From IMG/VR virus record IMGVR_UViG_3300025617_000007, positions 62,001 through 126,000 of that record: a stretch of 64,000 nt of DNA. One strand, given 5' to 3'. The stretch is from a virus. Position 1 is the first letter of the stretch, and every line of letters starts with the position of its first letter. The position numbers and the translations under genes are program-made. Under the pieces are notes generated by a model. That model made no database searches. It was not told the origin of the DNA and saw only the letters and a list, made by a program, of their open reading frames with translations. This document shows, in pieces, positions 7,891 through 60,486 of the stretch.

Positions 7891-8931
7891 TTAAAGGAGT
7901 CTAGCTCTTGTTAGTATGTTAGACTTTTTATTCGTATCAATTTTTTCGACTTCTATCTTAATAGTGTCGTTAGTACTTATCTTAATAGTTTCTATATCGT
8001 CACCAATATAGTCATCGTTAATGTATACAGAATATGAGTCTACGTTATCCGTATCTTCCACAGATAAATCAACTCTATATCTATAAGTTTCAGTAAGTGC
8101 AGAAATTCCATTATTAAAGATAATATCTAAATCAAAATTTTGAGGATTTGATGGGTATTTGTTTGCTCTTCTTTTAGTATTAAATGTGTCCACTTCTAAA
8201 AAAGTTGCAGTTCTAGATATTGCGGGAGATACTTCAAATTCTTCTTCATCTAAAAGAAATCCCATCATAAGAAATTCATAATTTTGTACATAATATTTTC
8301 TTTTTTCAATATCTAAAACAGATTCATCAGAGCTATTATTTAAAATTATCGGAATGTAATGTCCTTTTATTTCTGCATATGACTGACGAGACGAAAACTT
8401 CTGTAAAACTTTTTTATTAAAGTCATTTAGTTCTCTCATTTTATTACAGAATATTTTAACATTAAATGTTATATCTACAGGAACGGGTTGAGGTATTTTA
8501 TATACGTCTATTCCTTTTCTTTGTCCGTCCCATGTTGGAACTTTGGCATAATAAAATTGTTTTCTGTTCGGTATGGTATATTGTAAAGACGGGTTGGTTC
8601 CAAACTTAACATCAGGATTTCTAACTGTTGCAACGAATGGAGGTTTAATATTTTTATCTAAATCTTGAAAATTCCAAGTTTCAGTAAACTGTGCCCAATT
8701 CTGTGTGGTAATAATTAAATCTATTGTTGGTATTTTTTTACCTGAAACAGAAATTTCTAATTCGTCTTTAACAAAATCCAACATTCCACGGTCTAAATCC
8801 GCATGTAAAATCGATTTAGGCAAATAAGTACCATCTTCCTGAATTCTATCTAATAATTCTTCTCTTCTATCTAAAAGAATTTTTTCAGGACTTAGCGGTA
8901 AATGTTTTTTTATTTTTTTAGGTAATGCCAT
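7891..8931 (-). CDS. Tail sheath stabiliser/completion protein, gp15-like
   Basis: 346 residues (T4 gp15 has 272). The central block, IPQPVPVDITFNVKIFCNKM, then ELNDFNKKVLQKF, then GHYIPIIL, a basic ERKYYVQNYEFLMMGFLL strand and 'ISRTATFLEVD', follows the order of conserved segments in T4 gp15: a YELSIFTR-like strand, a helix bringing a half-ring together, and a paired beta-strand. gp15 caps the finished tail and docks it to the neck. Its position beside sheath and neck genes supports this. The C-terminal 80 residues look like an added beta-rich domain. The ATG overlaps the stop of the upstream zinc-ribbon gene by one base. Confidence 0.65.
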   Translation of the reverse strand: MALPKKIKKHLPLSPEKILLDRREELLDRIQEDGTYLPKSILHADLDRGMLDFVKDELEISVSGKKIPTIDLIITTQNWAQFTETWNFQDLDKNIKPPFVATVRNPDVKFGTNPSLQYTIPNRKQFYYAKVPTWDGQRKGIDVYKIPQPVPVDITFNVKIFCNKMRELNDFNKKVLQKFSSRQSYAEIKGHYIPIILNNSSDESVLDIEKRKYYVQNYEFLMMGFLLDEEEFEVSPAISRTATFLEVDTFNTKRRANKYPSNPQNFDLDIIFNNGISALTETYRYRVDLSVEDTDNVDSYSVYINDDYIGDDIETIKISTNDTIKIEVEKIDTNKKSNILTRARLL

Positions 8932-50593: not shown

Positions 50594-52336
50594 TTATCTT
50601 AATGAGTTCAAATCAAATGTTCTAACTCCATCAACGATGATTCTTCCGTAGAATCTGTTGTTCACCATCTTCTTAGCGTATCTGGTCATGATACCTTTGA
50701 TTGGTGTAAAGTTGAATGGGTTATACATTGTTGGTGTCAACTGTAATGGTACGTATGGTGCGTAAACGTAACCTGTATCCAATAGAGAAGAACCTTTATG
50801 ACCCATCAATACAGTGTTTGGTGGGAAGTAAGGGTCACGGTAAACTTGATATCTACCTGATAACGTACCTACTCTCTCAATACCCATGTTGTATTGGTCT
50901 TGGTCTGGTGCTGCGTTTGATACGTGGAAGTATTCCAAGTCATCAAAGATTGCTGAAATTTCAGAAGAAACTACAATCCAGTTAGCTCCACCTCTTAATG
51001 TTGATTTGTGAATTTGAGCTGAGATTTGGTTAATCGCAGTAATTAACGTTTGGTTCCAATCTTTTTGGTTGTAATTTACTGACCCGTTAGCCACTCTTTT
51101 CCAACCGTTGTAATCCCAACGTAATGTCCATGCTGCACCTTTTCTCAAGTCTCTTAAGATTTCACGGTCAATTTCTGCCGCAACTTGTTCAGACAATAAA
51201 GCTGTCAATTCAGCTTCAGCGTCGATGTTGTGGAATGCAGAAACGTCTTGTGCTAATTCTGGAGACCATTGTGCTCTTAGTTTTCTTTCTGTTACAGAAA
51301 CTGTTACTGACTCAAGGTCAAATGAAACTTCACCGATTCTATCTTCGAACTCCATATCTTTGTAGATTCTGTAAGTTGCGTTGAATGAAGGTGCTCCACC
51401 TGTGTAAGATACTCCTTCGTAACCATCTAATGATGTTGTTCCAATTGCCACTGGTGAAGATACGTCAACTGATAAATAAATTTTACCATCAGCAGTACAG
51501 ATATCATCATACTTACCACCAGGGAATGCTGTAGGAGCTTCCTGACCGTATTGTACGATACCTTTACCGTATTTCTGAGTAACAACATTAAAGTTATAGA
51601 AAGTAGAACCCGCTTTAACTTGTAATGAAGATAAGAACTCTTCAGTATCCATTTCGTTACCGTTAGGTCCGATTAATTTACCTGCTCCGTCAGATTGGAA
51701 ATTTGATAATTCAACCAATACCGCTCTAACTTCAGTTTGTGCAGTGTAGAATGCATTAGCACCTGTATCAGTTAATGAAGAACCGTCCCAAATCACATTA
51801 GTTAAACCCGTTGTGATTGCAGAATATGCACCTTTAGAGTAGTCGAATAAACCTGCTGGGTCTTCAGCTGGTTCAGCACCTTCGTAGAAACGGTCATACA
51901 AGTTTTTATCACCTGCACTGTAACCTGCCTCAGTACTACCTGTGTTACCAGGTGCACCGTAAGGTTGATAGTGACTGGATAAACCATCGACAGTCGTTCT
52001 GTTTTGAATTTTAGGTACGAAGTAGAACAATTTACCGATTGGTAAGTTCATAGCTTGTACTGATACGATATCATTAGCTAATAATTTAGAGAAAACTCTT
52101 CTAATGATAGGGAAAACAACTGTTTCAAATGAACCTGAGTTATCTGATGCAGATGCTTCGTTGATTAAGTGAGATGCTTGGTTTTCATACAATTGTGCCA
52201 TGTTCTCTTTAGTGTGACCTTTAAGTCCTTCTAGGAATCCTAATTTATCCCATTTGTTGATTGTGTCTTCTTTGATAACTTTCAAGTGCTTAAGACCGAT
52301 GTTACCAACTAGACCTGATTCTAATAATGCTCCCAT
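50594..52336 (-). CDS. Major capsid protein, gp23-like
   Basis: 580 residues (T4 gp23 has 521). The region AQLYENQASHLINEASASDN, FPIIRRVFSKLLANDIVSVQ and AMNLPIGKLFYFVPKIQNR has the layout of the gp23 start, and RKLRAQWSPELAQD plus GANWIVVSSEISAIFDDLEY and KMVNNRFYGRIIVDGVRTF match gp23 family blocks. The (I/L)xE site at Ile58-Asn59-Glu60|Ala61 lies where T4 gp23 is cut by the prohead protease (after Glu65), so the mature protein should begin ASASDN. The shell is built of hexamers of this protein. Terminator and late boxes lie around it, but no TATTTATA box in its own 27-base leader, so it may rely on read-through from the scaffold gene or on a promoter inside it. Confidence 0.92.
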   Translation of the reverse strand: MGALLESGLVGNIGLKHLKVIKEDTINKWDKLGFLEGLKGHTKENMAQLYENQASHLINEASASDNSGSFETVVFPIIRRVFSKLLANDIVSVQAMNLPIGKLFYFVPKIQNRTTVDGLSSHYQPYGAPGNTGSTEAGYSAGDKNLYDRFYEGAEPAEDPAGLFDYSKGAYSAITTGLTNVIWDGSSLTDTGANAFYTAQTEVRAVLVELSNFQSDGAGKLIGPNGNEMDTEEFLSSLQVKAGSTFYNFNVVTQKYGKGIVQYGQEAPTAFPGGKYDDICTADGKIYLSVDVSSPVAIGTTSLDGYEGVSYTGGAPSFNATYRIYKDMEFEDRIGEVSFDLESVTVSVTERKLRAQWSPELAQDVSAFHNIDAEAELTALLSEQVAAEIDREILRDLRKGAAWTLRWDYNGWKRVANGSVNYNQKDWNQTLITAINQISAQIHKSTLRGGANWIVVSSEISAIFDDLEYFHVSNAAPDQDQYNMGIERVGTLSGRYQVYRDPYFPPNTVLMGHKGSSLLDTGYVYAPYVPLQLTPTMYNPFNFTPIKGIMTRYAKKMVNNRFYGRIIVDGVRTFDLNSLR

Positions 52337-52363: not shown

Positions 52364-53731
52364 TTATTTTTGAATTTTACCCATCAAATCCTTCATTCTT
52401 AAGAATTGTGGATTCTCATAAGTTTTATTTTCAATAAGGTTAGTCGCGGAACCTTTAGACGGTGATTTCTGAACTTTAGATGTTACCGATTCAGTAACAA
52501 CTGAAGAACCTGATTTCGAATCTAAATCTTCTTTGATTGTTTTGTAAAGACCTTTAGATTCTTTGATTGTTTCTGCAGAATCAAAACGTCTTAAAATGTT
52601 TATTTTTTCTTGTTTTGTTGTCGAATGCTCAGTGAACAGTCGAGTTGCATATGCTAGATTTGAATTGAAAACTGCAACCTCGTTAAGTTTTTCTTTAAAG
52701 ATGTTAAGTGCCTTACGGTACTCTTCATTTTTTTCTCTTAACTGAGAAACTTCTTTTTCTAAAGATTCGTTTCTCTGTGCCGGTCTCTTTAAAGACTTAG
52801 GGAAGTTCTGAGGTTTTTTGTTAGTGATACGACCATTAACATTTGAACGAACAGAGGATTCTTTATATTCACCTTCCATTTCTTCACCTTCTTCCATTTG
52901 GTCCATACTCATATCTCCTGAATATTTTTTCTTACCCATAGACTTTTCCATTCCTTCACTTTCTTTTCTTCTATCAGCGAAAGATTGTTTCATTTTTCTA
53001 CCGCGGTCTTTCATACCTAATGAATCATCAAGGTCATCATCGTAACCTTCACCCATTTCTTCTTCAGATTCGTCTTCATCACCAAGTTCGATTTCATAAA
53101 CAATTTCATCTTCTAATTCCATTCCTTCACCCATTTCATCGTCCATTACATCTTCTTCTTCGTCACCCTCTGTTTGAATTTGATATTCAACGTCAGCTTC
53201 CTCGTCTTTTAAGTGAATCTCATCACCGTCTTGTGTTACCACAATACCGTCTTCTTCACCCATAGCTTTGAAAACCTTAAGGATTTCTTCGTCAGAAGCA
53301 CCTGTAAGGTCAAGAGGTAAAAGAATTTCTTCTTCGTCATCAACTTCTAAATCATCACCTGGTAAATCCATCATAAGCATTTCATCAGAATCCATTTCCA
53401 TATCATCTTCATCTTCCATTTCGTCAGACTCGTCTTCAAATTCCATTTCATCTTCTTCGTCATCCATATCCTCAATTTCCATGTCCAGCTCTTCTTGTTC
53501 TTTCATTTCGGTACCCATATCGTGGTCCCCTTTTTCTTTTTCTTCGCTTTCCATTTCTTCTGATGACATTTCTTCAATCTCTTTATCTGATAGAGATTCT
53601 TTTACTAATTCACTGATTTCTTCCTTCATAGTAGAAGCAAGTATTCCTTTTGCATTCTCCGTTACGGCTTCCTCCAAATTCTTCATTTGTAGTAGTGCCT
53701 CTTCAACTAAATTTTGTTTTTTTTCTGCCAT
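52364..53731 (-). CDS. Prohead core scaffold protein, gp22-like
   Basis: 455 residues. The first two-thirds are extremely acidic (MEIEDMDDEEDEMEFEDESD and similar). The C-terminal block (LNEVAVFNSNLAYATRLFTE, KINILRRFDSAETIKESKGL) is the conserved signature of gp22 scaffold proteins, with helical pairing segments. It fills the prohead during assembly and is degraded by the prohead protease; many (I/L)xE sites are present (LNE|V for example). T4 gp22 has 269 residues, so the acidic part is expanded. Position between protease and capsid genes (21-22-23 order) confirms it. Confidence 0.88.
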   Translation of the reverse strand: MAEKKQNLVEEALLQMKNLEEAVTENAKGILASTMKEEISELVKESLSDKEIEEMSSEEMESEEKEKGDHDMGTEMKEQEELDMEIEDMDDEEDEMEFEDESDEMEDEDDMEMDSDEMLMMDLPGDDLEVDDEEEILLPLDLTGASDEEILKVFKAMGEEDGIVVTQDGDEIHLKDEEADVEYQIQTEGDEEEDVMDDEMGEGMELEDEIVYEIELGDEDESEEEMGEGYDDDLDDSLGMKDRGRKMKQSFADRRKESEGMEKSMGKKKYSGDMSMDQMEEGEEMEGEYKESSVRSNVNGRITNKKPQNFPKSLKRPAQRNESLEKEVSQLREKNEEYRKALNIFKEKLNEVAVFNSNLAYATRLFTEHSTTKQEKINILRRFDSAETIKESKGLYKTIKEDLDSKSGSSVVTESVTSKVQKSPSKGSATNLIENKTYENPQFLRMKDLMGKIQK

Positions 53732-54115: not shown

Positions 54116-54838
54116 TTAATTTCCTAAATAATCGGAAAGTTTTCTCATTAAGTCAAGTGATTTGTCCATACCTTTTGAAGATTCTACTGAAGAACCTTTA
54201 TGTTTCGTTTCTTCTTCAATGTTTTCATCGTACTTTGTTCTATCATCTTGATTTAAGAATAAGTAAGCTCCTGGTGTTGATGGGGAAGATACTAAATCAA
54301 AACATATCAATTCAAAATCTTCTTGTACTTCATTCTTTTCACCTTTTTTTACTAATGAACCCACACCACGAGATGAAACTCCCATAGTAACACCCTGTCT
54401 CATAAGATTAGCTGCTTGGTCACCAGGGCAAGATACTACACCTTTTTCGTGGAAACCTGGTGATGTTAGTAATTTTAATTTACCCATAAGTACATTACCT
54501 TCCCACCACATATCAGTAATTAAATGCGATACACGGTCTAAATCGATTAGAGATGACTCAGGATGGTTAAGTTCAGATATTGATAACCCTTTCTTTATTG
54601 CTCCTTGATACTTATCAGCCTCTCTTTTTAAAATCTTTTCAGGGTAGATACGTCCGTTTCTATTCGGCGTATCGTATTTCTGTAATACAGCATAAAACTC
54701 AAAGGGTTTAGAGTGGTCTAATTGACCATAGGATTCTTTAATTACCTCAGCGTTTCTAGTATCGTTGGGATTTATAAATCCAGCATCCCATTCTATTAAT
54801 ATACCTTTACCTGTATCGTTCGGTCCTAATATTTTCAT
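54116..54838 (-). CDS. Prohead protease, gp21-like
   Basis: 240 residues (T4 gp21 has 212). Catalytic His92 lies in ISELNHPES and catalytic Ser155 or Ser156 in GVSSRGVGS, the two marks of the gp21-type serine protease. The block NRNGRIYPEKIL is also conserved. It cuts capsid and scaffold proteins after (I/L)xE in the prohead and then degrades itself. A TATTTATA box lies 11 bases upstream. It is the enzyme that would process the leader-bearing proteins noted elsewhere in this window. Confidence 0.92.
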   Translation of the reverse strand: MKILGPNDTGKGILIEWDAGFINPNDTRNAEVIKESYGQLDHSKPFEFYAVLQKYDTPNRNGRIYPEKILKREADKYQGAIKKGLSISELNHPESSLIDLDRVSHLITDMWWEGNVLMGKLKLLTSPGFHEKGVVSCPGDQAANLMRQGVTMGVSSRGVGSLVKKGEKNEVQEDFELICFDLVSSPSTPGAYLFLNQDDRTKYDENIEEETKHKGSSVESSKGMDKSLDLMRKLSDYLGN

Positions 54839-54849
54839 AATCTTTTATT

Positions 54850-54857
54850 TATAAATA
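54850..54857 (-). promoter_or_regulatory. Late-promoter-like box TATTTATA (prohead protease)
   Basis: Exact TATTTATA on the minus strand, 11 bases before the protease ATG and directly after the stop of the upstream gene. Confidence 0.6.
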
Positions 54858-55241
54858 TTACGGAATGCCAAGTACGACATCCCATTCACTTATTTGGATG
54901 GGGGTTAACCTTAATATTTTGTTTATTTTATCTACAATAAAATCTTTATATTGATAAGCTAATTCACTATCGTTCCCCTCTCCCGACCAAAAAACATAGT
55001 TATTTGCAAAATCAGTAACGTCTTTCCCGTCATACATAACCTCACCAATGGCTACATGAACAGTTATATCCTCATCTTCTATACTACCCTCCATAAAAAC
55101 ACTATCAGGTATAATAACTGAATTTCTATACCCAAATTTATATGAGTAATCTTTAGGTTTTATCATATTGTTAAGGTTATCCAAAACAGTATTTGATTCG
55201 AATAACCTTCTCATTTGATTTTCTTTTATGATAATTTTCAT
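54858..55241 (-). CDS. Hypothetical protein with capsid-targeting-like leader
   Basis: 127 residues. The leader MKIIIKENQMRRLFESNTVL matches the basic-helix pattern of other leaders, with IKE and LFE as possible protease sites. The rest is a mixed alpha/beta domain with acidic strands (SVFMEGSIEDEDITVHVAIG). A TATTTATC box lies 13 bases upstream. Its position beside the prohead protease fits an internal head protein. No family recognised. Confidence 0.5.
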   Translation of the reverse strand: MKIIIKENQMRRLFESNTVLDNLNNMIKPKDYSYKFGYRNSVIIPDSVFMEGSIEDEDITVHVAIGEVMYDGKDVTDFANNYVFWSGEGNDSELAYQYKDFIVDKINKILRLTPIQISEWDVVLGIP

Positions 55242-55254
55242 TTGGTCGTTTTAA

Positions 55255-55262
55255 GATAAATA
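55255..55262 (-). promoter_or_regulatory. Late-promoter-like box TATTTATC (54858 gene)
   Basis: TATTTATC on the minus strand, 13 bases before the ATG at 55241. Confidence 0.5.
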
Positions 55263-55264
55263 TA

Positions 55265-55702
55265 TCAGACCTTCTCTTTTTTTGTTTTGTGTAATGTGAA
55301 ATAATCTGAACCCATTAAAGGAAACCCATAAACCGTTTTAACTATACTTTTTATTTTATCTCTCAAAATGAGGGATTTAAATTCCGTATGTTCTTTTAAA
55401 AAAAGAGTTACTTCTAAATTCATGAAACTTCTTTTACCTATTTGTATTCCACTACTTCTTAAGTCCAAATCAACAATATTGTGTTTTTCAAAAAATAATG
55501 GGTCAACAACATCTAAAAGATGATGTTTAATGTCTCTTTCTAACATACCCGTAACTCTTTTCCAATTATTAACTTCCTTTATGGGTTCTACCCAACTTTG
55601 AATTACGATATATATCGATTTTAATTCTTTCGCATCTACGGTTCCGTAACTACACTTTGCATTCTCAAATCCTTTTAACTGAGACGTTTTTCCTTTTTTC
55701 AT
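55265..55702 (-). CDS. Hypothetical head-module protein
   Basis: 145 residues. It has mixed alpha/beta structure (LKSIYIVIQSWVEPIKEVNN, SFMNLEVTLFLKEHTEFKSL) with an aromatic KTVYGFPLMGSDYF end. It lies between the rpsU-like gene and the prohead protease region. Not assigned; a head completion or nucleic acid-binding role cannot be told. Confidence 0.45.
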   Translation of the reverse strand: MKKGKTSQLKGFENAKCSYGTVDAKELKSIYIVIQSWVEPIKEVNNWKRVTGMLERDIKHHLLDVVDPLFFEKHNIVDLDLRSSGIQIGKRSFMNLEVTLFLKEHTEFKSLILRDKIKSIVKTVYGFPLMGSDYFTLHKTKKEKV

Positions 55703-55790
55703 ATAATTTTTTAATCATACTCGTTTATTTTTACATAAATTATAAACAATAAAAGGGTCTATGTCAAAATATTGATTATTTCGGTATATT

Positions 55791-55798
55791 TATTTATA
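55791..55798 (+). promoter_or_regulatory. Late-promoter-like box TATTTATA (rpsU-like)
   Basis: Exact TATTTATA, 12 bases before the ATG at 55811, pointing away from the head operon. It gives the ribosomal protein gene late timing if it is used. Confidence 0.55.
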
Positions 55799-55810
55799 AT
55801 AAAAGAAGTT

Positions 55811-56002
55811 ATGATAATAATAAAAGTAGGAAAAAACGAAAATATTGAAAAGGCACTTAAGCGTTATAAGTTTAAAGTGTATAAGACAAAACAGATTGAC
55901 GAGATTCGTAATAGGAAAGAATATGTGAAAAAATCTGAAAAAAAAAGAAAGCAAAAACAAAAAGCCAAATATGTTCAAAAAATAAAGGGTTCAGAAATCT
56001 GA
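55811..56002 (+). CDS. rpsU: Ribosomal protein bS21, phage-encoded
   Basis: 63 residues from ATG 55811 (upstream ATG at 55772 rejected as it spans the promoter). IIKVGKNENIEKALKRYKFK, then VYKTKQIDEIRNRKEYVKKS and a basic KKRKQKQKAK helix are the bS21 pattern (ENIE.ALKR.K.K....). bS21 sits at the mRNA exit on the 30S subunit near the anti-Shine-Dalgarno end of 16S rRNA; in Bacteroidota it helps hide that sequence. A phage copy could exchange with the host protein and change start-site choice. Its stop codon lies inside the terminator stem. Single gene with its own late-type box, inserted between head genes on the opposite strand. Confidence 0.85.
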   Translation: MIIIKVGKNENIEKALKRYKFKVYKTKQIDEIRNRKEYVKKSEKKRKQKQKAKYVQKIKGSEI

Positions 56003-56012
56003 ACCCTTTTTT
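55987..56012 (+). terminator. Terminator overlapping the rpsU stop codon
   Basis: Stem GGGTTCAG / CTGAACCC with a 4-base loop and a TTTTTT tail. The gene's TGA (56000-56002) lies within the stem, so a ribosome finishing translation would cover the hairpin. Confidence 0.85.
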
Positions 56013-56036
56013 ATTTAGTAGTTAATTAGTTAAGTG

Positions 56037-56771
56037 TTATAACCCTTGTTCTAATTGTCTTAATTTATATAGGGAAGATAATGTGTTTTCAGAATCGTTG
56101 ATTTTTTGAATGGTCATCTCAACCTTACTTTTTAAATCTTCATCATTTGACTCAGTTAACGTACTTTGTAGTTTATTTAATACTATTAGTTTAGATTTGT
56201 CAATCTCCTCAGACAATTGAGTTTTATTTAATGACAGTAAATCTTTTAATTCTTTTTTCTCTTCTTCAGATATATTACTAAACTCTTTATTAAATGTAAA
56301 TGTTGCAATTTTTAACATTGAACTTAAGGGTATGTTAAGTGACTCTGAAACCACTTTATTTACTACAACTTCAGAGATGTTATTTTTTATTCTGTTCTTA
56401 GATTCTAATATTTTTTCCAAATCTTTAACTGATGAATTATAAACAACGATATCAATGTCAGAGTAATGGTTATCTTTATTTTCTTTTAGGTTTTCAGAAA
56501 CCCACATATCAATCTCTTTAATCTTTTTTGATTCAGAAGTTATAATACTTTTTAATGTTTCAATACTTTCATTAACGTAATCATCCACAATATCCTTAGA
56601 CATTCCTTTTTTATTACTTAATTCATTATATAAGTAATAAGCTTCAGAAATTTTTTTATTGTTTAAAACATTCTTTTTAAAAGACTTCATGTGAGTCTTA
56701 AATGAAGGTTTACCATATGATTTTGTCAATAGAGACTCAATACCGGATTTTATTTGGCCAAATTTATTCAT
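56037..56771 (-). CDS. Scaffold-region head assembly protein
   Basis: 244 residues. Strongly helical and Lys/Glu/Ser-rich (KSFKKNVLNNKKISEAYYLY, SKLIVLNKLQSTLTE). It lies between the portal and prohead protease genes, where T4 has the prohead-core genes 67 and 68 and related phages have core proteins. That position and its composition suggest a core/scaffold protein that is removed by the protease. TATTTATA box 12 bases upstream. Specific orthology not shown. Confidence 0.5.
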   Translation of the reverse strand: MNKFGQIKSGIESLLTKSYGKPSFKTHMKSFKKNVLNNKKISEAYYLYNELSNKKGMSKDIVDDYVNESIETLKSIITSESKKIKEIDMWVSENLKENKDNHYSDIDIVVYNSSVKDLEKILESKNRIKNNISEVVVNKVVSESLNIPLSSMLKIATFTFNKEFSNISEEEKKELKDLLSLNKTQLSEEIDKSKLIVLNKLQSTLTESNDEDLKSKVEMTIQKINDSENTLSSLYKLRQLEQGL

Positions 56772-56783
56772 AATGTTTTTTAT

Positions 56784-56791
56784 TATAAATA
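56784..56791 (-). promoter_or_regulatory. Late-promoter-like box TATTTATA (56037 gene)
   Basis: Exact TATTTATA on the minus strand, 12 bases before the ATG at 56771, immediately after the portal gene stop. Confidence 0.55.
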
Positions 56792-58666
56792 TTAGTCATT
56801 TAGCAATGTGTTGAGTTTTTCTTCAATTTCACTTAAAGATTTACGACCTTTTGATAAGTCTAATTCTGATTTACCTGTAATCATATCATCCTCTAAGATT
56901 AAGTTAAGGTCTTTTTCTTTAGTACTTTCAGGGGTAATATCAGCATCACCACCTTCAGGTGCTCCCCCAACATCTCCACCAGTATCTCCACCGATGTCAC
57001 CTCCAATATCACCACCTAAGTCTACACCTCCGAAGTCTCCACCTCCACCAAAGTCGGAACCTCCTCCAAATCCCGTGTCAGATGGTTCTGTAGTTTCACC
57101 TTCAGGGGTATCACCTTCACCAGGTTTGTTTCCGTATAACTTATCAATATTAGCGAAGATACCTGTTTTAGATATAACTTCAGGTGTTTTTTCAAGCTCA
57201 GCTCCGACAGCTTTCTCAATTCGTTGTTGTTGTAAATCAAGTTTAATTTCCTCGTCAGAAAAACCAAGAATATGTTTCTTAGCCCACGATGTTGATACAG
57301 GTTGTATCCCGTTTCCTGGGTCTGAGACGGCATCTCTATATAGTTGTATTTTACTTTGCCATTGCTCAACTTTAAGTAGGTCAGCCTGTGTTGATGGGTT
57401 AGTCAAACCTAATGTAAAGTTATTTAACTCATCTTCAAAACCTAAGACGTATAAATGTATAATTGCAATTTTATTTAACTCTTGAATCATCGATTTTTGA
57501 ATTCTATTGATAGTACGGGCAAAACGAATATCCTGTAAAGCCAAATTTTTACCGTCACCGACAACTTCCTCAAAACCTAAAAACGCTTTAGGTACTCTAA
57601 GGGCAGTTAATAATTTCTTTTGGATATATTCGATATCTGCAATCTCTGATAAGTTCTGAGCACCTGGTAAGGTATCTATTGGGTTTGGTGCGTTAGGGTC
57701 ACGAACAGGAATGAAATAATCTTGGTCAACAGCCATTTGATTATATCTTAAATCCACATTTCCATTTTGTGGGTCCGCAACTTGGTCACGTTTAAACTTA
57801 TTGGCAACACGTTGTACGTACGGTTCAACATCTTTGTCATCCATATTTCCTACAAATACTTTGAATACCCTTCGTTCAGGTGCTCGTGACGTTCTATAAA
57901 TTAACATTGCATCTTCAGAAAGAATAAGTTGTTTCCATATTCTTCTAGCCTTCTCTAACATAGAAGTACCGTAAGGAAGTTTACGGTCATCACCTAATAA
58001 TCTAAAGTGAGCCACCTCCCATGTGTTAAATTCAATATCCTTAGTTTGCCATAAGAATTTTAACGCATCATTTTCAGTATCCGTTGAGTTTCTCTCAGGT
58101 TTAATTTTCATACCTCGTTCTTGACGAGTAATTTCAATATTAGGTAATTGCTGTACCCCCATAACACCCTTTTCAGGGTCTAACTTTAAGTAAACAAAGT
58201 TATCCCCATACTTACAAGTATTTCTTGTCCACATAGGTAAATTAGTACTAATGTCGAGTCTATTGTTAAATAAGTCTCCCAAGACTGATTTAATTCGTTT
58301 ACTCTCAGAAAAAATTTGTAATATAAATCCATCTTCATTTGTTGTTGTTGATTCTTCAGCATATATGTCAAGAGCAGCAGATATTTCAGGAGTATACTCC
58401 ATACTTTCATAATCATAAAAAGACGCTAATCGAGTTGGTTCATAATAAACCGCCTGACTGTAAAGATTATTTTCAATCTTCTGCCATTGTTGACCTAAGT
58501 AAAGTGTTTGTTGTGCCTGTAATTTCTCTCTTTCGTATTCTTGTTTGTTAGGTGTTTTTAATAACTCCTTTTTATCAAACTTAAAGACAGGGGCTTGTTG
58601 GTCCAGTGTAGAATCGGGACCAAAAACTTTTGTAAGTCTTTGCCATATAGTATAATTGTCTTCCAT
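56792..58666 (-). CDS. Portal protein, gp20-like
   Basis: 624 residues (T4 gp20 has 524). Family blocks: YYEPTRLASFYDYESMEYTP, ISAALDIYAEESTT, MWTRNTCKYGDNFVYLKLDP, SRAPERRVFKVFVGNM and LLTALRVPKAFLGFEEV. The dodecamer at one vertex starts prohead assembly and is the channel for DNA and the base of the neck. The C-terminus (from about residue 535) is a Gly/Asp/Pro-rich tail of GGDFGG/GGDIGGD units, disordered and not present in T4. TATTTATG box 11 bases upstream. Confidence 0.93.
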   Translation of the reverse strand: MEDNYTIWQRLTKVFGPDSTLDQQAPVFKFDKKELLKTPNKQEYEREKLQAQQTLYLGQQWQKIENNLYSQAVYYEPTRLASFYDYESMEYTPEISAALDIYAEESTTTNEDGFILQIFSESKRIKSVLGDLFNNRLDISTNLPMWTRNTCKYGDNFVYLKLDPEKGVMGVQQLPNIEITRQERGMKIKPERNSTDTENDALKFLWQTKDIEFNTWEVAHFRLLGDDRKLPYGTSMLEKARRIWKQLILSEDAMLIYRTSRAPERRVFKVFVGNMDDKDVEPYVQRVANKFKRDQVADPQNGNVDLRYNQMAVDQDYFIPVRDPNAPNPIDTLPGAQNLSEIADIEYIQKKLLTALRVPKAFLGFEEVVGDGKNLALQDIRFARTINRIQKSMIQELNKIAIIHLYVLGFEDELNNFTLGLTNPSTQADLLKVEQWQSKIQLYRDAVSDPGNGIQPVSTSWAKKHILGFSDEEIKLDLQQQRIEKAVGAELEKTPEVISKTGIFANIDKLYGNKPGEGDTPEGETTEPSDTGFGGGSDFGGGGDFGGVDLGGDIGGDIGGDTGGDVGGAPEGGDADITPESTKEKDLNLILEDDMITGKSELDLSKGRKSLSEIEEKLNTLLND

Positions 58667-58713: not shown

Positions 58714-60486
58714 TTAAAAACTTCCAAATAACCAGGAATTATTCTTATAATCATCACGAGTAGGATTACTACCTGTTCTGTGGTGGTTAATTCCACCTGG
58801 TATTGAAGGCATTCCGGGGTTGAAATCGTTAGAAGTATTTTTAACAGGAGTTTCATTAACCATCCAACTTTCCATCATCGCTTTTGTCTGTTCGGTAACT
58901 TTCTCTAATTGTGTGAATGAGTTTTCACCTACATAGATTGCCATAGCTATTGCCATAATAAGGTCATCATGTTGACCTTTTTGGTGGTCAGGTCTACCGT
59001 TTATATAAACAAAAGTATTTAATTCGTTCAATAATCTAGAAGAACGTATTGCGAAATTATGTCTCAACGACTCTTCAAATGATGCGACAATCTGAACTCG
59101 TTTACTATTAAAGTTCAAACCTGGTATTTTTTCTTGTAAATTAGGATTATACTTCCACTTGTCGGCAGCGTTCGTACCTTCGACATAAAGGTTTTTATAA
59201 CCCATTTCCTGTAGTTTTCTAGATGTTGAAACGCCCATACCTCCAGTTATATCTATAACGATAAACGCACTATACATAGTCGCCCATTTATATGCAATTT
59301 CTGCAACAACATCGGGAGGTACTTTACCTAAATATTCTAATACTTGCTCCCTCTCATCAAAATCAATAATCGTAAATGTGGTAAAATCTTCACTATCTCC
59401 ACGAGATACATCAATACCCATAATATATTTATGTCCCGGTATTGGCTCTTTCCATTGCCATAACGCCCCACCCATAAATTTGTTTTCAGGGTTCCTTATA
59501 AATTTTTCTTTGATGATTTCAATTGTGTCATTTGGGATGACATTATCCCCTGAACCAAGGAAGTTACACTCCAATTCCTGAGCAATTTTTCTTCTGTCGA
59601 ATTTGAGTTTTTTAGCCATTCCTTCAAACCAAGGAGAATATGCTTTGTATCCATCTAATAATTTTTCTTTTATTTCAACATAATCCCTTTTACGAGGGTG
59701 TATATGTGAATAATCTATAATAATTTCGTCATCGTTATAATCTTCACGGTTCAATAAATAATGAACTATATCCTTACACTTAATTAATTTAAAGTCTTTA
59801 GCATATCGAGGGTCACGATACCAAAACATTTCAGTAATTTTAAAATCGTTCATACCTCTTAAGGCTTGGTCATAGATAGTGTAGTAAATTGGGTCAAAAC
59901 CATTAGGGGTTGAGATTACAATCACTTTACCACCCGTAGAAAGTGAAGCCATACATGCAGACCAAAAATCGTCATCTGCATCGATAAATGCAGCTTCATC
60001 AAATATTAATATAGTTGGAGTATAACCACGTAGGGCATCTTTAGATGTTGCAACTGCCTTTACCTCACATCCGTTAGATAATTTAAAATGTCGTTGTGAG
60101 TTTTTTTCAGCTGAAAATGTTATACCAAACCATGCGGGCCATTGGTCAACAAAGGACCTGACTTTATTTGCGAACTCCATTGAAGTGTCCAATTTATTCG
60201 CAATAATAAGTACTTTTTCAGGTTTCTTTTTAGATGCCGTTACAACTTTTTTAGATGCCCAAGCAGCGGTCACTGTAGACACACCAGCTTGTCGATACTT
60301 TAATGCAATATTTTCTTCGTGATTGTCGTAATCGTTAATTAGATTAACTTGGTCGGGAAATAACTCTAAAGGTACATATTGTGATTGGGTATTATCGTAA
60401 GTTTGTAGGTATGTCTTTAATGCGTAAGGAGTATCCTTTACACATTTCGCATACTCCAATAAAACTTGTTCTCTTGATAATCCCAT
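58714..60486 (-). CDS. Terminase large subunit, gp17-like
   Basis: 590 residues (T4 gp17 has 610). ATPase: ALKYRQAGVSTVTAAW (Walker A-like with Arg-Gln-x-Gly), ILIFDEAAFIDADDDFW (Walker B, Asp-Glu) and VIVISTPNGFDPIYY (motif III). Nuclease: YIMGIDVSRGDSEDFTTF (first Asp), FIVIDITGGMG and QHDDLIMAIAMAIYVG (last acidic pair). It cuts concatemeric DNA and drives it into the prohead through the portal. T4-like enzymes package headfuls. Portal is next downstream. There is no separate small terminase gene in this window. Confidence 0.94.
   Translation of the reverse strand: MGLSREQVLLEYAKCVKDTPYALKTYLQTYDNTQSQYVPLELFPDQVNLINDYDNHEENIALKYRQAGVSTVTAAWASKKVVTASKKKPEKVLIIANKLDTSMEFANKVRSFVDQWPAWFGITFSAEKNSQRHFKLSNGCEVKAVATSKDALRGYTPTILIFDEAAFIDADDDFWSACMASLSTGGKVIVISTPNGFDPIYYTIYDQALRGMNDFKITEMFWYRDPRYAKDFKLIKCKDIVHYLLNREDYNDDEIIIDYSHIHPRKRDYVEIKEKLLDGYKAYSPWFEGMAKKLKFDRRKIAQELECNFLGSGDNVIPNDTIEIIKEKFIRNPENKFMGGALWQWKEPIPGHKYIMGIDVSRGDSEDFTTFTIIDFDEREQVLEYLGKVPPDVVAEIAYKWATMYSAFIVIDITGGMGVSTSRKLQEMGYKNLYVEGTNAADKWKYNPNLQEKIPGLNFNSKRVQIVASFEESLRHNFAIRSSRLLNELNTFVYINGRPDHQKGQHDDLIMAIAMAIYVGENSFTQLEKVTEQTKAMMESWMVNETPVKNTSNDFNPGMPSIPGGINHHRTGSNPTRDDYKNNSWLFGSF

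Follow-up and report, generated by a model that had tools for sequence, protein, structure and literature searches.

Structure and Identity of the bS21 Locus

The window, a stretch of 64,000 nucleotides that forms part of a 138,593-bp virus record, encodes one bS21 ribosomal protein, in the ORF at 55811–56002 on the plus strand, which sits alone among called genes of the minus strand. The genes and elements of the locus are as follows.

50594..52336, minus strand: major capsid protein (MCP; PF07068, Gp23)
52364..53731, minus strand: scaffold-like acidic protein, without a family match, conserved in relatives and named by position and composition
54116..54838, minus strand: prohead protease (PF03420; phrog_207)
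55265..55702, minus strand: g145, a conserved hypothetical gene, the divergent neighbor of bS21, conserved in relatives (model pLDDT 90.6)
55739..55767, minus strand: TTGACA-17-TATAAT, candidate g145 promoter, the sole 12/12 match in the record
55787..55793, plus strand: TATTTAT, 24 nt ahead of the bS21 ATG, a candidate late promoter element
55811..56002, plus strand: phage bS21 (rpsU-like) CDS, 63 aa, with its TGA at 56000–56002
55984..56009, both strands: terminator hairpin with an 11-bp stem, whose 3' arm holds the TGA
56037..56771, minus strand: g244, a conserved hypothetical gene, the convergent neighbor of bS21, conserved in relatives
56792..58666, minus strand: portal protein (PF07230)
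58714..60486, minus strand: large terminase (TerL; PF03237, phrog_2)

Genes for capsid, scaffold-like protein, protease, g127, and g145 lie to one side of bS21, opposite those for g244, portal, and terminase. The sequence-only reading had described a reversed single-gene unit amid head genes, and the Pfam and PHROGs matches of the neighbors verify that description.

The same reading had called the gene a bS21 homolog, which is upheld by PF01165 (47.8 bits; cut-off 27), by NCBIfam TIGR00030 (38.1 bits; cut-off 28.95), and by the solved structure closest in sequence, the bS21 of Flavobacterium johnsoniae (7jil_z; E 2.9e-11). The phage and F. johnsoniae (7JIL) proteins are of the same family and align without gaps over residues 1–61, and the residue for contact with the anti-Shine-Dalgarno (ASD) sequence, proposed earlier as a point of comparison with flavobacterial bS21, is kept in the alignment: Tyr54, at the same position in both, is the ASD-sequestering residue of Bacteroidia-type bS21 and would stack on A1534. 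Position 54 is Tyr in 48 of 50 phage bS21 proteins and His in the other two, and a start of the M-I/L-I-I type is kept in relatives. Phage and bacterial bS21 differ consistently at residues 21, 23, 24, 27, 28, and 30. Judged by its sequence, ORF 55811–56002 encodes a genuine Bacteroidota-type bS21, and the window phage is most likely a T4-like phage of Bacteroidota.

Phages of this kind, their layout, and the idea of a late takeover of ribosomes were already published in 2022. In the Bacteroidetes phages of Chen et al. (2022), bS21 runs opposite to the terminase, portal, protease, and capsid genes that surround it, is transcribed late, and has an aromatic residue 54; the authors proposed substitution in the ribosome (PMC9723584). 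The window phage has the same layout, with bS21 on the opposite strand between two hypothetical genes, of which g145 is probably one of the two flanking bS21 in their phages, and it shares the aromatic residue 54. The likeness to their clades a–e is by published description; their criterion for these clades is a TerL similarity of about 70% or more (PMC9723584), and TerL identity of the window phage to its IMG/VR relatives is 52–91%.

IMG/VR yielded 199 candidate stretches that code for a relative of the query; 80 of them were kept. In nearly all loci of sufficient length, reversed bS21 stands between g145 and g244, with the protease and capsid genes beyond one of them and those for portal and terminase beyond the other; in two (L054 and L212) none of the neighbor genes was matched. 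Among cultivated phage records, window bS21 has no match at E 1e-5. A tree built from 104 bS21 proteins, on a short alignment with many forks unresolved and bootstrap not settled, groups phage sequences apart from nearly all sampled host proteins. For pairs of the window gene and a relative with computable dS, dN is 0.11–0.22 and dS 0.85–2.2; dN well below dS indicates that phage bS21 is under purifying selection.

Two loci at the border between the phage and host sets deserve mention. A bS21 gene in a Croceivirga MAG (L105, 3001–3162), counted among host loci, is placed by the tree next to a phage bS21, with a long branch. It is without a strong Shine-Dalgarno (SD) sequence, its surroundings look chromosome-like by ORF reading, with apparent sigma factor and histidine kinase genes nearby, and it is possibly a second chromosomal copy. 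The bS21 of a viral contig (L218) was rejected as a phage gene and left out of the phage set, being host-like (77%) and located beside a XerC/D-looking recombinase and other chromosome-like genes; its assignment to the host is by ORF reading alone.

The 145-aa protein of g145 has a confident predicted fold (pLDDT 90.6). The window protein has no match in Pfam, PHROGs, or NCBIfam, its profile has none among PDB sequences, and its model has none among PDB folds at E ≤ 1e-3. The model has one viral fold match, to an uncharacterized protein (A0A8S5L9A5), and a few members of the g145 alignment have weak matches to scattered PHROGs. Matches of g244 in the PDB are all insignificant (e.g., ribosome recycling factor, E 0.21).

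Candidate Promoter Motifs and Leaders

A simple ORF rule gave 110 called genes for the record. Of these, 34 have TATTTAT no more than 60 nt ahead of the start, compared with none of 294 control stretches of coding sequence; this enrichment figure is generous because the controls are coding and probably less AT-rich than leaders. Twenty-two instances are located at −19 to −27, and no accompanying −35 element was found among the called genes of the record. The contrast between genes in leaders of the phage family is better evidence. Among distinct leaders, the window included, the motif is present for protease in 46 of 46, g244 in 46 of 46, g127 in 11 of 11, scaffold in 18 of 19, portal in 26 of 39, and bS21 in 42 of 50, and it is absent or infrequent for MCP (0/32), g69 (0/41), g424 (0/13), TerL (4/35), and g145 (1/51). 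This distribution fits the RNA mapping of Chen et al., where the region does not form a single operon and where MCP with its upstream gene, and protease with its downstream gene, appear to be cotranscribed (PMC9723584). The main text of that paper makes no mention of a promoter or terminator.

We suggest that TATTTAT is a candidate late promoter class of the phage family, present across the record, for example at 54116–58666. Late promoters of T4 are likewise short, AT-rich, −10-like elements without a −35 element that precede head genes, but the T4 element is TATAAATA and that of the window phage TATTTAT. If T4 is a guide, the transcription start would be near 55800 and would give bS21 an 11-nt leader. 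The proposal that bS21 has a late-type promoter of its own is therefore supported by the position of the motif and by its company of head genes; since the bS21 promoter is of the same TATTTAT type as those of several head genes, the timing of bS21 in the window phage is probably late. The divergent gene g145 probably has a promoter of a different class. Best scores to TTGACA-17-TATAAT across 50 distinct g145 upstream regions are 12/12 in five, 11 in 19, 10 in 16, 9 in nine, and 7 in one.

Leaders of phage and host genes were compared by the duplex energy between the last 22 nt of the leader and the 16S tail, the sequence of which we take from general knowledge. The leader of window bS21 lacks GGAGG, as the sequence-only reading had noted of a strong GGAGG, and its predicted pairing is just −2.0 kcal/mol. 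In F. johnsoniae, McNutt et al. (2023) showed that rpsU is autoregulated via an extended SD read by ribosomes that lack bS21; such ribosomes initiate faster on rpsU mRNA, and Y54A raises output of an rpsU reporter (PMC9976891). At −2.0 kcal/mol, the window gene lies outside the range of the extended SD of autoregulated Bacteroidota rpsU (below −13). Across 60 distinct bacterial rpsU leaders the median is −19.6 kcal/mol and 50 are at or below −13, with 10 falling short of it, versus a median of 0.1 and none at or below −13 among 47 phage bS21 leaders. In a second run that required 40-nt leaders, the phage median was −0.35 (n = 46), with a nominal P of 4e-17 against the host that should not be taken at face value because the bacterial set is mostly Flavobacteriaceae, both sets contain related sequences, and the phage set is family-centered. 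Shuffled phage leaders gave −0.65 kcal/mol; phage bS21 leaders thus pair no better than chance. Allowing an alternative ASD left the contrast between phage and host leaders unchanged.

SD absence is not universal among phage bS21 genes, as a same-family phage bS21 with a GGAGG leader (L078, upstream of 4521; −12.2 kcal/mol) demonstrates. Other stronger phage leaders are those of L200 (−9.6 kcal/mol) and L212 (−7.0 kcal/mol).

Called genes of the phage record are SD-poor in general (median −1.45 kcal/mol; GGAGG in 0 of 110). Host messages are reported to be SD-poor as well. Phage bS21 obeys the general SD-less rule of its phage, and host rpsU is reportedly the exception of its host. The lack of an SD may consequently reflect phage leaders in general and not selection to escape autoregulation. 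Because the very strong SD used for autoregulation in most sampled host rpsU genes is missing from the phage copies, the phage gene is probably free of the host circuit. In the portions considered here and supplements aside, neither Chen et al. (PMC9723584) nor McNutt et al. (PMC9976891) compares phage leaders; the SD contrast between phage and host rpsU goes beyond those portions of the published texts, as does the covariation of the terminator stem described below.

A Stop Codon within the Terminator Stem

The hairpin at 55984–56009 has a predicted energy of −16.1 kcal/mol (z −4.6), and 0 of 200 shuffles were as good; Rfam matches over the terminator are all subthreshold. The TGA at 56000–56002 had been placed inside the stem, and it does lie in the 3' arm. 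This placement is kept in 12 distinct sequences of the nearest sub-lineage, the window included. Among 10 distinct sequences, rows chosen from that sub-lineage, three stem pairs are changed on both sides, and such covariation indicates that the stem is selected. In one branch, a stem change alters an encoded residue (KGSE to KDSE), which again suggests that the stem itself is under selection. Elsewhere in the family, the hairpin is just downstream of the stop (four sequences), carries the stop in the 5' arm (one sequence), or was not found; L015 and the L169 group have weakened hairpins that were missed by the script.

The idea that the arrangement couples translation to termination had accompanied the observation of the stop. 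What stands is a stop-in-stem kept in the nearest sub-lineage; general coupling as a conserved feature was rejected, as the position of the hairpin varies across the family and the arrangement is confined to that sub-lineage, which argues against a general translation–termination switch. Outside of the window, at 8415–8588 (plus strand) of the record, a second short reversed ORF (57 aa) also has its stop inside a terminator stem. The layout seems better read as convergent genes packed tightly together than as a means of regulation.

A Probably Late Phage bS21 and the Feedback Circuit of the Host

Ribosomal proteins are common in aquatic phages. The bS21 of pelagiphage HTVC008M, likewise phage-borne, enters E. 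coli ribosomes, and the published view is that bS21 binds loosely and can be exchanged (Mizuno et al. 2019; PMC6375957). That phage differs in having an alphaproteobacterial host. In an E. coli in vitro system, ribosomes containing its bS21 had an activity of about 5% (PMC6375957), so incorporation of a phage bS21 can also inhibit.

The explanation we favor, and hold to be fairly probable as a whole, is that a T4-like phage with its own late-type bS21 supplies a protein that joins the host 30S subunit, sequesters the 16S tail via Tyr54, and escapes autoregulation. The gene would be transcribed from the TATTTAT promoter, probably late, and its product would join host 30S subunits by filling vacant sites or exchanging with host bS21. 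The 16S tail would stay sequestered via Tyr54, leaving ribosomes suited to SD-less messages during capsid production. F. johnsoniae rpsU has the extended SD and is autoregulated in its host, whereas the phage gene lacks an SD and its protein differs at residues 21–30. With an 11-nt SD-less leader, translation of phage bS21 should hold up as bS21 accumulates, unlike that of host rpsU, which the phage protein is expected to repress. The absence of the host feedback signal from the phage gene thus predicts sustained synthesis of phage bS21 together with repression of host rpsU.

Other accounts draw on the same observations. A plain top-up of dosage, in which the phage copy replenishes an easily lost bS21 so that ribosomes stay complete late in infection and SD absence is a default of phage leaders with no regulatory meaning, accommodates the SD-poor state of all phage genes, the retention of Tyr54, and the loose, exchangeable binding published for bS21 (PMC6375957), but by itself leaves the phage-specific residues unexplained; we regard it as somewhat doubtful. 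Those residues are instead central to the proposal by Chen et al. (2022) of phage-specialized ribosomes, in which an altered segment around residues 21–30 favors phage messages (PMC9723584). The suggestion of the sequence-only reading, that a late phage copy could turn start-site selection toward phage messages, comes close to it. Consistent differences between phage and host at residues 21, 23, 24, 27, 28, and 30 speak for this proposal, which is compatible with our main explanation. Against it, phage genes are SD-poor, host genes reportedly are too, and no distinguishing feature was found at the level of the SD, and we consider it unlikely. A preference for phage messages based on SD use is not favored, since messages that are SD-poor in the phage and reportedly also in the host cannot be separated in this way, and a bS21 that retains Tyr54 should keep ribosomes as SD-blind as does the host protein. 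Any selectivity should come from the phage-specific residues 21–30, close to the suggestion of Chen et al.

A switch in which the ribosome ending at the TGA decides whether transcription stops is highly improbable. In its favor are the compensatory changes by which the nearest sub-lineage maintains a stem whose 3' arm contains the stop. Against it, other members of the family have the hairpin downstream, have it overlapping the stop in another way, or lack it; a ribosome at that codon is expected to open the stem, not to help it form; and the layout recurs at another short gene of the record.

Returning to the escape from autoregulation that we favor, we advance, as a possibility and tentatively, an extension to the whole family: phage bS21 would both escape and exploit the host feedback, with SD-less late leaders that are insensitive to it, a Tyr54 protein that shuts off host rpsU, and progressive replacement of host bS21. 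McNutt et al. discussed the host rpsU circuit as a possible counter-defense (PMC9976891). That host rpsU is SD-rich and the phage copies are SD-less makes the general idea of ribosome takeover specific and testable in F. johnsoniae, for which reporters and bS21 mutants exist already (PMC9976891).
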